Shown here: one piece after another, positions 25,317-29,791 of the stretch
Position numbering within the stretch: position 1 is the stretch's first letter
Layout: each line of letters starts with the position of its first letter
Assembly (NCBI RefSeq): GCF_003855255.1
Contig: NZ_CP034072.1
Coordinates: forward strand, 6,826,997 to 6,890,996
Direction: 5' to 3'
DNA from: Mycolicibacterium nivoides
GTDB lineage: Bacteria > Actinomycetota > Actinomycetes > Mycobacteriales > Mycobacteriaceae
Length of the DNA: 64,000 bases
The notes under the pieces: model-generated
What the model was told of the DNA's origin: nothing
Databases searched by the model: none
What the model saw: only the letters and a program-made list of their open reading frames with translations
Made by a program: the position numbers and the translations under genes

Positions 25317-25345
25317 TTGCGTTGGATAGCAGGTCAAACTATAGT
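25317..25345 (+). promoter_or_regulatory. SigA-type promoter of the methylmannose-polysaccharide operon
   Basis: TTGCGT (25317-25322) and TATAGT (25340-25345) are separated by exactly 17 nt, a near-consensus housekeeping promoter. Transcription should start around 25352, inside the inverted repeat at 25345-25362, leaving a leader of about 80 nt before the GT4 gene at 25432. Confidence 0.65.
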
Positions 25346-25362
25346 CTGGACACATGTCCAGA
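25345..25362. promoter_or_regulatory. Inverted repeat overlapping the transcription start, probable TetR operator 1
   Basis: Arms TCTGGACA and TGTCCAGA are perfect 8-bp complements around a CA centre. The site begins at the last base of the -10 box, so a bound repressor would block initiation. A closely similar sequence lies at 29212-29228 in front of the TetR gene at the far end of the cluster. Confidence 0.7.
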
Positions 25363-25431
25363 GGGTTCGGAGTCAACGCGTGAGCGTGTATTCCCAGCTC
25401 AGCACGATTCCGGCCGTCGGGTGATCTGATT

Positions 25432-26676
25432 ATGCGTATCGCGTTGCTGTCCTATCGGAGCAAGACTCATTGCGGTGGCCAGGGCGTGTACGTGCGCCAT
25501 CTGAGCCGCGGGCTGGCCGAACTCGGCCACGAGGTCGAGGTGTTCTCCGGCCAGCCCTACCCCGAGGGCCTGGACCCGCGGGTCAAGCTGACCAAGGTCC
25601 CCAGCCTGGACCTGTACCGCGAGCCGGACCCGTTCCGCGTGCCCCGGCCCAGCGAGATCCGCGACGGTATCGATGCCCTGGAGCTGGCCACCATGTGGAG
25701 CGCCGGGTTCCCTGAGCCGCGGACTTTCATGATGCGTGTCGCCCGGATCCTGGCCGACCGCCGCGACGAGTTCGACGTGGTCCACGACAACCAGAGCCTG
25801 GGCTCGGCACTGCTGAAGATCGCCGATAGCGGCCTGCCGGTCGTGGCCACGGTGCACCACCCGATCACCCGCGACCGGGTGGTCGAGATCGCCGCCGCCA
25901 AGTGGTGGCGCAAGCCGCTGGTGCGGCGCTGGTACGGGTTCGCCGAGATGCAGAAGAAGGTGGCCCGCAAGATCCCCGAGTTGCTCACGGTCTCGTCGTC
26001 CTCGGCCGCCGACATCGCCGAGGACTTCGGGGTGGCGCCGAGCCAGCTGCACATCGTGCCGCTGGGGGTGGACACCGAACTGTTCAAGCCGGCCGAGCAC
26101 CGCGTGAACGGACGCATCATCGCGATCGCCAGCGCCGACGTGCCGCTCAAGGGTGTGAGCAACCTGCTGCATGCGGTGGCCCGGCTGCGGGTGGAGCGCG
26201 ACCTCGACGTGCAGTTGGTGTCCAAGCTCGAGCCGAACGGGCCGACCGAGAAACTCATCGCCGAACTCGGCATTTCCGACATCGTGCACAGCTCCAGCGG
26301 GCTGACCGATGAGGAGCTCGCCGCGCTGCTGGCCTCGGCCGAGGTGGCCTGCATCCCGTCGCTCTACGAGGGCTTCTCGCTGCCCGCCGTGGAGGCCATG
26401 GCCAGCGGCACCCCGATCGTGGCGAGCCGCACGGGTGCTCTGCCAGAGGTGGTCGGGGACGACGGGTCCTGCGCCCGCCTGGTACGCCCGGCCGACGTCG
26501 ACGAGCTGACCGCCGTCCTCGGCGAACTGCTCGACTCGCCGCTGGAGCGCCGCAAGCTCGGCGCGGCCGGCCGGCAGCGGGCGCTCGATGTCTTCAGTTG
26601 GGAATCGGTTGCCGCACAGACGGTATCGGTGTACGAGATGGCCCGTGAGAGGACCAGGAAGGTGGCGCAATGCTGA
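25432..26676 (+). CDS. manT: GT4 glycosyltransferase, probable ManT of methylmannose polysaccharide synthesis
   Basis: GT-B glycosyltransferase of 414 aa. The N-terminal acceptor domain starts MRIALLSYRSKTHCGGQGVY with the glycine-rich loop. The donor site shows VPLGVDTELFKP and the GT4 E-x7-E motif in YEGFSLPAVEAMASGTPIV. As I recall, a four-gene cluster in non-tuberculous mycobacteria encodes ManT (alpha-1,4-mannosyltransferase), sugar methyltransferases and the hydrolase MmpH. The order here (GT4, methyltransferase, alpha/alpha-barrel, convergent methyltransferase) fits. The assignment rests on synteny and family, not a search. The start of the next gene overlaps its stop. Confidence 0.75.
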   Translation: MRIALLSYRSKTHCGGQGVYVRHLSRGLAELGHEVEVFSGQPYPEGLDPRVKLTKVPSLDLYREPDPFRVPRPSEIRDGIDALELATMWSAGFPEPRTFMMRVARILADRRDEFDVVHDNQSLGSALLKIADSGLPVVATVHHPITRDRVVEIAAAKWWRKPLVRRWYGFAEMQKKVARKIPELLTVSSSSAADIAEDFGVAPSQLHIVPLGVDTELFKPAEHRVNGRIIAIASADVPLKGVSNLLHAVARLRVERDLDVQLVSKLEPNGPTEKLIAELGISDIVHSSSGLTDEELAALLASAEVACIPSLYEGFSLPAVEAMASGTPIVASRTGALPEVVGDDGSCARLVRPADVDELTAVLGELLDSPLERRKLGAAGRQRALDVFSWESVAAQTVSVYEMARERTRKVAQC

Positions 26677-27407
26677 CCGTCGATTTCGACCGTCTCGGTG
26701 TCGGACCGGGCACCACGGTGATCGACGTCGGCTGCGGCGCGGGCCGGCACACCTTCGAGGCCTACCGGCGGGGAGCGAACGTCATCGGTTTCGACCAGAG
26801 TGCGTCCGACCTCAACGACGTCGACACGATGCTGCAGGCCATGCGGGAAGAGGGCGAGGTCCCGCTGTCCGCGAGGGGCGAGGCCGTCAAAGGTGACGCG
26901 CTCGACCTCCCGTATCCCGACGCCAGCTTCGACTGCGTCATCGCCTCGGAGATCCTGGAGCACGTCCCGGAGGACGACCGGGCCATTTCCGAGCTGGTGC
27001 GTGTTCTCAAACCCGGTGGCTCGCTGGCCATCACGGTGCCGCGCTGGCTTCCGGAGAAGCTCTGTTGGCTGCTGTCGGACGAGTACCACGCCAACGAGGG
27101 CGGACACATCCGCATCTACAAAGCCGACGAGCTGCGCGACAAGGTCCTGGCGCACGGGCTCACCCTCACCCATACGCACCACGAGCATGCGCTGCACTCG
27201 CCGTACTGGTGGCTCAAATGTCTTGTCGGCACCGAGAAGAACGACCACCCCGCGGTCAAGGCCTACCACCAGCTGCTGGTGTGGGACATGATGGGTCGGC
27301 CGTGGCTCACCCGTACGGCCGAGTCGCTGCTGAACCCGGTGATCGGCAAGAGCGTGGCGCTGTACTTCCGCAAGCCCGCATTCCGCGTACCGGAATCCAA
27401 CGGGTAG
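26670..27407 (+). CDS. SAM-dependent methyltransferase, probable 3-O-methyltransferase of the MMP cluster
   Basis: Class I methyltransferase of 245 aa. Motif I is VIDVGCGAGRHTFEAYRRGA at about residues 14-33. The acidic loop ASFDCVIASEILEHVPEDD and motif III-like VLKPGGSLAITVPRWLPEKL follow, as in Methyltransf_11 proteins. Its ATG lies inside the end of the GT4 gene (7-nt overlap), so both are translated together. In the methylmannose pathway one enzyme must 3-O-methylate the growing chain; this is the natural candidate, by context. Confidence 0.72.
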   Translation: MLTVDFDRLGVGPGTTVIDVGCGAGRHTFEAYRRGANVIGFDQSASDLNDVDTMLQAMREEGEVPLSARGEAVKGDALDLPYPDASFDCVIASEILEHVPEDDRAISELVRVLKPGGSLAITVPRWLPEKLCWLLSDEYHANEGGHIRIYKADELRDKVLAHGLTLTHTHHEHALHSPYWWLKCLVGTEKNDHPAVKAYHQLLVWDMMGRPWLTRTAESLLNPVIGKSVALYFRKPAFRVPESNG

Positions 27408-28499: not shown

Positions 28500-29167
28500 T
28501 CGAGCTGTCCCGGCTCGCCGGAGGTCCGCTCCAGCACCCGCATCGAACCCATCACGGCCACCTCGTTGAAGGCGCCCGTCGCCAGGGCGCGCTGGTAGAT
28601 GTGGAACGGCGCCTGGCCGCCGTCATTGGGATCGGGGAACACGTCGTGGATGATCAGCGCACCGCCCACCTCGACCCAGCGGGCCCAGCCGCCGAAGTCC
28701 CGCTGCGCGGCCTCCTCCGTGTGGCCACCGTCGATGAACAACAGCCGCAACGGGGTTCGCCATCCGCGGGCCACCACGGGTGAACGGCCGACCACGGCCA
28801 CCACGTGCTCGTCCAGGCCCGCGGCGTCCAGGGTATGGCGCATCGTGGGCAACGTGTCGAACAGTCCGGTCACCGGATCGACCATGGTGGTGTCGTGGTA
28901 CTCCCAGCCGGCCTGATGCTCCTCCGAGCCGTGGTGGTGGTCGACGGTGTACAGCACTGAATCCGTCTCCTGCGCGGCCGCGCCCAGCATCACCGTCGAC
29001 TTACCGCAGTAGGTGCCGATCTCGACCCCTACCCCGCCGCTCAGGTAGCGCACGCCGGCGTCGTAGAGCGCGCGGCCCTCATCGGCGGGCATGAAGCCGG
29101 TGACCTGCTCGGCGAGGGTGAACAGGCGCTCGGCGCGGGGCGGCAGGGCGGTGTCAGCGGTGCTCAT
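28496..29167 (-). CDS. meT1: Metal-dependent SAM methyltransferase, probable MeT1 (1-O-methyltransferase)
   Basis: TylF/MycE-like class I methyltransferase of 223 aa from the ATG at 29167. Motif I is [16 protein letters not shown]. Metal-binding segments [18 protein letters not shown] and [17 protein letters not shown] carry the Asp, His and Asp expected of a Mg-dependent sugar O-methyltransferase. MeT1 of the methylmannose cluster blocks the reducing-end 1-OH; this metal-dependent type and the position in the cluster fit. TAGGTT lies 8 nt before the start. It is divergent from the TetR gene and converges on mmpH. Confidence 0.72.
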
Positions 29168-29184
29168 GGATGCACAACCTACCG

Positions 29185-29228
29185 TTGCTGGCCGATGGTT
29201 GTTGTAGTAGCGTCCGGACACGTGTCTG
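29185..29228 (+). promoter_or_regulatory. TetR promoter with operator 2 of the MMP cluster
   Basis: TTGCTG (29185-29190), a 17-nt spacer and TAGCGT (29208-29213) form a SigA-like promoter. Initiation would fall on the GTG at 29222. The sequence from 29212 (GTCCGGACACGTGTC) matches GTCTGGACACATGTC at 25344-25358 in 13 of 15 positions and includes the perfect palindrome GACACGTGTC (29217-29226). A regulator bound here could control the TetR gene, and possibly meT1, together with the operon at 25.4 kb. Confidence 0.65.
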
Positions 29229-29791
29229 ATGCGGCCCTGGAGTCGACGCGCCGCCGTCTGAGTGCCCGGCAGGCCGACACCGTGGAACGTCTGGGTAGGG
29301 CCGCGGTGGAGCTGATCATCAGGGACGGCTTCGCCGGGCTGACCGTGCGCCGCGTGGCCGCCGAGGCCGGGGTCGGGGCAGCGACCGCCTACACCTACTT
29401 CTCATCGAAGGAACACCTTGTCGCCGAGGTGTTCTGGCGCAGACTCTCTGCCGCTCCGCTGGCCGCACACGAGTCGGCCGACCCGGCCACCCGGGTGGTC
29501 GAGGTGCTGCAGCACATCGCGTCGCTGGTGGCCGACGAACCCGAGTTCGCCGGTGCGGTGACCAACGCCCTGCTGGGCAAGGATCCCGATGTGGACGCGC
29601 TGCGGCAGCGCATCGGCGCCGACATCCGGGGCAGGCTGGTCGCCGCGCTCGGACCGGATGTGGACATGGACGTGATCGAAGCGCTGGAGTTGCTCTATAC
29701 CGGCACCCTGGTGTGGGCCGGGATGGGCTATGAGACCTACGCCGGCATCTCGCGCCGGCTGGAGAAATCAGCGCGGTTGTTGCTCAGCTGA
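29222..29791 (+). CDS. TetR-family regulator, probable controller of the MMP cluster
   Basis: TetR protein of 189 aa (198 aa if the ATG at 29195 is used). The HTH is [33 protein letters not shown], near residues 41-73. The ligand domain is all-helical. The GTG at 29222 is preferred because a well-spaced promoter would start transcription there, making it leaderless. The same operator-like sequence lies over its own start and over the manT promoter, so it is the obvious candidate repressor for the cluster. The inducing ligand is unknown. Confidence 0.75.

Follow-up and report, generated by a model that had tools for sequence, protein, structure and literature searches.

Introduction

The genes manT, pmeT3, mmpH and meT1 form the described gene cluster for methylmannose polysaccharide (MMP), whose physiological role is unsettled, with parts in fatty-acid metabolism and cold adaptation having been proposed (PMC9883506). 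The available portion of that paper, which also mentions a Nocardia ManT homologue, makes no mention of a regulator, a promoter, an operon or transcription, and the literature searched, which did not extend to supplements or to the original meT1 report, describes no regulator of the cluster, in line with what an initial annotation of the DNA considered here had stated. That DNA is a 64,000-nucleotide stretch of Mycolicibacterium nivoides (NCBI RefSeq assembly GCF_003855255.1, contig NZ_CP034072.1, positions 6,826,997 to 6,890,996 of the forward strand), hereafter the window. It holds the same four genes as the published cluster and adds to them two operator-like sites and a tetR gene divergent from meT1.

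The most pertinent described regulatory system is that of Rv0767c, for which a motif has been predicted with an e-value of 1.2E-14, missing that paper's own cut-off of E-20 (PMC4482099), and whose ChIP-seq regions are enriched for GAC and GTC (PMC10312376). Motif X of Mycobacterium sp. VKM Ac-1817D resembles the Rv0767c site and is found beside 14 operons, which include three TetR genes; phytosterol increases the expression of 12 of these operons more than 3-fold (PMC6593523). The window TetR resembles this system in its TetR subfamily, in an identical 10-residue segment and in the type of operator found at the start of the regulator gene itself; it differs in falling into another clade and in having MMP genes as neighbors, which the portions at hand do not mention. 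KstR, the mycobacterial TetR repressor of cholesterol catabolism, is a further TetR-family comparison: its chains 5aqc and 5cw8 align with the window TetR near full length (E ~2e-4), yet the similarity is weak and lies outside the top PDB matches, and we take its operator motif to be different.

As detailed below, we judge it fairly probable, from comparative sequence evidence, that the two sites are operators of a TetR subfamily, and that the local TetR represses both itself and the manT operon within a regulon shared with the CYP51/Rv0768 cluster.

Two sites with a common layout

Both 15-mers singled out by the initial annotation were correctly placed, GTCTGGACACATGTC at 25344-25358 and GTCCGGACACGTGTC at 29212-29226, with 13 of 15 bases identical and each copy following a -35/-10 pair with 17-bp spacing. 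On the manT side the 15-mer makes up the left part of TCTGGACACATGTCCAGA, an 18-bp palindrome (operator 1, 25345-25362, 16/18 symmetric), and its counterpart TCCGGACACGTGTCTGAT (operator 2, 29213-29230) has a lower symmetry of 12/18. The predicted promoters, TTGCGT (25317-25322) and TATAGT (25340-25345) for manT, TTGCTG (29185-29190) and TAGCGT (29208-29213) for tetR, share one layout: the final T of the -10 hexamer is base 1 of the operator, and a start codon sits 9 bp into it, ATG at 25354 on the manT side and GTG at 29222 for tetR. The second site thus overlaps the tetR promoter and start codon, as had been proposed. GTG 29222 is the likely tetR start; the first in-frame ATG reported by the open reading frame finder is at 29195, nine codons upstream. 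A stock sigma-70 scan flags neither promoter, and both are called because of their 17-bp spacing and conservation. The features of the locus are as follows.

25317..25345, plus strand: predicted manT promoter, -35/-10 with 17-bp spacer, TTGC and TATAG conserved in 104 distinct sequences
25345..25362, no strand: operator 1, TCTGGACACATGTCCAGA, predicted from palindrome and conservation, overlapping the predicted transcription start of the manT operon
25354..25383, plus strand: mini-frame MSRGFGVNA, nine codons from the ATG in operator 1, a predicted leaderless upstream open reading frame
25380..25424, plus strand: second mini-frame, read from the sequence only, whose GTG overlaps the stop of the first (GTGA)
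25432..26676, plus strand: manT, alpha-(1->4)-mannosyltransferase (Pfam PF00534/PF13439; cluster as in the available portion of PMC9883506)
26670..27407, plus strand: pmeT3, putative 3-O-methyltransferase (Pfam PF08241)
27417..28499, plus strand: mmpH, MMP hydrolase, no Pfam match, named by its place in the cluster (same portion of PMC9883506)
28496..29167, minus strand: meT1, 1-O-methyltransferase, convergent to mmpH and divergent from tetR (Pfam PF13578)
29176..29181, minus strand: predicted meT1 -10, TAGGTT (TAAGTT/TATGTT in relatives), 8 nt before the ATG
29185..29213, plus strand: predicted tetR promoter, 17-bp spacer, conserved in 77 distinct sequences
29213..29230, no strand: operator 2, TCCGGACACGTGTCTGAT, a predicted operator holding the tetR GTG start codon
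29222..29791, plus strand: tetR, Rv0767c-like subfamily by PF00440 and tree, predicted leaderless GTG start

The genes manT, pmeT3 and mmpH make up one run with meT1 convergent to it, which is the arrangement of the published MMP cluster, and the TetR carries the N-terminal PF00440 helix-turn-helix (53.2 bits against a cut-off of 24). The predicted meT1 -10 is present in most of the 45 sequences inspected among 51 distinct meT1 upstream sequences.

Scored over its 18 bp, the motif reaches at least 16 at two places in the window and at none in six dinucleotide shuffles, a control that lacks independence because the scoring pattern was derived from these very sites. Across the 6.9-Mb genome YRGACAYRTGTCYR occurs at four places, against one for the reversed-pattern control, and these are manT, tetR and the starts of two TetR paralogues, A (3777849-3778370) and B (125172-125690, both in contig coordinates). 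Allowing the 15-mer one mismatch yields eight genome places, the four extra ones not exceeding control (8 and 8 matches), and the bare 11-mer GGACACRTGTC is found four times, as is its control. We therefore rejected the rarity of the 11-mer as evidence; it is the location of its four copies, not their number, that is unusual.

Conservation upstream of manT

Among 150 manT upstream loci read, some of which share a genome, 148 hold a site of at least 14/18; the two misses are L060, a truncated locus whose site is visible in L311, and G468, which has none. Over 104 distinct manT upstream sequences the major allele stands at 95% in the operator and 97% in the -10, against 49-56% in the flanks. At the scale of the genus (396 genomes, with presence counted per genome and position at manT established in the loci read), the promoter-operator pattern with up to three mismatches is found in 293 of 315 genomes with manT and in 1 of 81 without, the reversed control giving 0. 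All 22 manT genomes lacking a pattern match were read: 21 have a site of 14-18/18, and the remaining one is G468.

In 115 of 117 distinct sequences the frame opened by the ATG or GTG of the operator closes ahead of manT, compared with 71 and 81 for the other two frames, and in 30 of 32 representatives sharing less than 70% identity, compared with 17 and 19; about 57 open frames in 117 would be expected from shuffled sequence and 2 are observed. Because this frame nearly always closes before manT, the data suggest that ribosomes start at the operator ATG and that the transcript begins inside the operator. The same observation is what speaks for an altogether different account, namely that the conserved block is a core promoter with a leaderless short open reading frame whose start is palindromic by chance, and no operator at all. 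We consider that account highly improbable, as the left arm GGACA, which lies outside both the -10 and the mini-frame, is as conserved as the right arm, and the tight motif recurs in the genome only at starts of the TetR subfamily. An RNA hairpin or terminator was likewise rejected by inference: the palindrome is terminator-like on the minus strand only, and because a plus-strand transcript would begin within it, that transcript would be without the left arm.

The tetR site and its meT1 side

In all 80 named mycobacterial loci of tetR orthologues the start codon sits 9 bp into the operator. A score of at least 16 at both sites is seen in 65 of the 65 named loci where the two are readable; in the other 15, manT or enough upstream DNA falls outside the stretch read, and the short upstream DNA of two of these (L083 and L093) contains the full manT site. 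The initial annotation had held that its circuit would fail if species keeping the cluster and the TetR gene did not conserve the two sites together, and since all 65 loci keep both, the sites behave as it expected.

The meT1 gene lies beside tetR in 75 of the 80 named stretches, and the distance from the start of the tetR operator to that of meT1 is 45-46 bp in 42 of the 75 and 16-118 bp in the rest. The promoter predicted for meT1, with TANGTT 8 nt ahead of the ATG, adjoins the tetR operator, which is located upstream of it and not over it, and no operator is found near meT1 in L198, the one TetR-less cluster whose meT1 side was read. The earlier proposal that the two sites govern the whole pathway thus lacks support at meT1, where control by the tetR operator is putative at most and could be of either sign.

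Five named loci (L118, L126, L131, L135 and L142) contain the TetR and an intact operator (17/18) in a stretch devoid of all four MMP genes, which argues for a life of this TetR outside MMP. An isochorismatase- or nicotinamidase-like frame, judged so from the sequence, stands divergent to the TetR in L118 (M. llatzerense), L126 and L135, at ~6400-7050.

Sister repressors and the possible readers of the operator

With a cut-off of E <=1e-55, a TetR orthologue is present in 222 of the 396 genomes, 212 with manT and 10 without. It is absent from 103 of the 315 manT genomes, at least two of which are not true losses, since G449 and G488 have TetR pieces at contig ends; 97 of the 103 still match the manT promoter-operator pattern, and the operator is there in all 29 TetR-negative loci read. 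Paralogue A, counted at a cut-off of E 1e-60, occurs in 380 of the 396 genomes and in 99 of the 103 manT-positive, TetR-negative ones. Divergent to it is an Rv0768-type aldehyde dehydrogenase gene (TIGR04284, 946 bits, cut-off 775), followed by P450, SDR and CYP51-type genes, and because of these neighbors we regard paralogue A as the Rv0767c-type regulator; where names of M. tuberculosis cluster genes other than Rv0767c and Rv0768 are given to such neighbors, the assignment is our assumption. Beside the window TetR there is neither an Rv0768-type aldehyde dehydrogenase nor a CYP51 gene, whereas paralogue A has both.

The window TetR is 44-49% identical to Rv0767c-type proteins. In a tree of 45 proteins, midpoint-rooted and subject to a long-branch warning, it falls into a 39-row group (support 100/99) with TetRs of other genera and outside the Rv0767c-type rows, and so does not qualify as an Rv0767c orthologue; several of these same-clade TetRs lie beside CYP51 or aldehyde dehydrogenase genes. 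By its operator it belongs with the Rv0767c-like group, the GACNNRTGTC core with the start codon inside being found at the window tetR, in 11 of 11 Rv0767c-type loci and in all six loci read for more distant paralogues. One 10-residue segment, by analogy the recognition helix, has the same sequence in the window TetR as in three aligned Rv0767c-type proteins. Paralogue B, also seen in L193 at 8658-9236, is a third TetR of the subfamily, 35% identical and with the operator at its start; its divergent gene resembles a ferredoxin/NAD(P) oxidoreductase.

These distributions bear directly on who reads the two sites. A private circuit, with the local TetR as sole reader controlling manT, meT1 and itself, would sit well with the joint retention of both sites and with the adjacency of meT1 and tetR described above, but we find it unlikely in view of the same operator at the paralogue starts and of the many manT genomes that keep the pattern without a TetR orthologue. 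What holds of the circuit originally put forward is that the operator-like sites are conserved with the TetR; what does not hold is that they belong to it alone, since two paralogues of the same genome and 97 of 103 TetR-negative manT genomes carry the site. One may conversely take the Rv0767c-type paralogue for the main reader of the manT site, leaving the local TetR to control itself and perhaps meT1. This would account for a site that is nearly invariant where the local TetR is missing and is compatible with the near-ubiquity of the paralogue, which in TetR-negative genomes would most likely be the factor at the manT site; as a general account it appears quite improbable, however, because the local TetR shares the helix segment, its own site shares the manT core, and it would thus be expected to bind both.

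The reading that we favor, a common operator read by the local TetR as well as its paralogue, meets several difficulties of its own. Paralogue B carries the operator, yet its helix segment (AALYAHFPSI) differs from that of the window TetR, so that a shared operator is no proof of shared reading. Ten genomes hold the TetR without manT, and 29 closely related TetR-negative sequences keep the downstream flank too (82-88%, against 47% upstream). In three small genomes where the Rv0767c-type is present (G395, G444 and G497) the manT site has decayed to 14-16/18, and conversely G439 (97% complete) and G222 (80% complete) keep it at 15 and 16/18 although neither a window-TetR relative (E 1e-10) nor an Rv0767c-type protein (E 1e-60) turns up in them. 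Finally, the main text of the paper on motif X, which is the part covered here, does not name the MMP genes (PMC6593523).

The notion that loss of the regulator predicts loss of the operator was discarded: only G468 fits it, and G439 and G222 do not. The G468 locus, L276, has manT without an upstream operator, in a genome without a window-TetR relative at E 1e-10, and in L271 (G395), L273 (G497) and L274 (G444) the decay affects mainly the left arm.

MMP and CYP51 genes together in a second genus

TetR regions were also read from 14 genomes of one other genus of the same family (g23). MMP genes lie within the stretches read in 10 of the 14, and none were seen in the stretches of G048, G121, G144 and G184, the rest of those genomes not having been searched. 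The tetR gene is beside meT1 in 9 of the 10 genomes with the cluster and ~4 kb away in G082. An operator directly 5' of manT was looked for and rejected, there being none at manT; longer stretches place it, at 16/18 or better, at the head of the same-strand run containing manT in all 10. In nine g23 loci totalling 133,009 bases we counted 21 sites, where four shuffles gave 0.25 on average.

The order in G154, pieced together from two overlapping stretches (L295 and L313), is SDR, cyp123-like P450, operator, operator, Rv0768-like, SDR, Rv0770-like, Rv0771-like, FAD protein, LLM protein, manT, pmeT3, mmpH, meT1, operator, tetR, operator and CYP51. The MMP genes adjoin the Rv0768-Rv0771/FAD/LLM run in L292, L295, L312, L313 and L322, and the same TetR has a CYP51 gene after it in G154 and G065.

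Since same-clade TetRs stand at CYP51 or aldehyde dehydrogenase loci in other genera, the window TetR probably predates its MMP role. The tree grouping and the g23 loci further raise the possibility that the mycobacterial MMP regulator descends from the regulator of a joint MMP/CYP51 locus.

In the window itself, GGTAC half-sites are repeated at 30380-30480, like a separate operator for a divergent pair made up of a second TetR gene (29768-30385, minus strand) and a P450 gene from ~30463; msrA synteny suggests that this pair is the Rv0135c/cyp138 locus.

Discussion

We propose that a subfamily of TetR repressors reads one palindrome, about GGACAYRTGTCC. By binding over its own start codon and over the point where transcription of manT-pmeT3-mmpH begins, the local TetR would block RNA polymerase at both places until it is released by a ligand. 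The same operator would be read by the Rv0767c-type paralogue next to the CYP51/cyp123/Rv0768 cluster; this would place the MMP genes in a regulon common with that cluster, and where the local TetR has been lost the paralogue alone would hold the manT site. The sequences themselves show the sites with their geometry and conservation, the sites at the paralogues and the gene neighborhood in g23; binding, the direction of control and this cross-talk we infer, as we do a lipid- or sterol-derived ligand, a sterol being suggested by the published motif X data together with the gene neighbors.

It is about an even call, in our estimate, whether MMP biosynthesis is an arm of an ancestral CYP51/aldehyde dehydrogenase (Rv0764c-Rv0771-type) regulon, with a mycobacterial locus that split and whose halves kept paralogous TetRs and the same operator. 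Were this the case, induction of MMP would accompany that of sterol or lipid oxidation. A strain lacking only the local TetR may show a weak phenotype, since a paralogue may occupy the same site. Together, the shared operator and the joint locus of the second genus would offer a concrete hypothesis on the inducing signal and the role of MMP, and one open to a simple genetic test.

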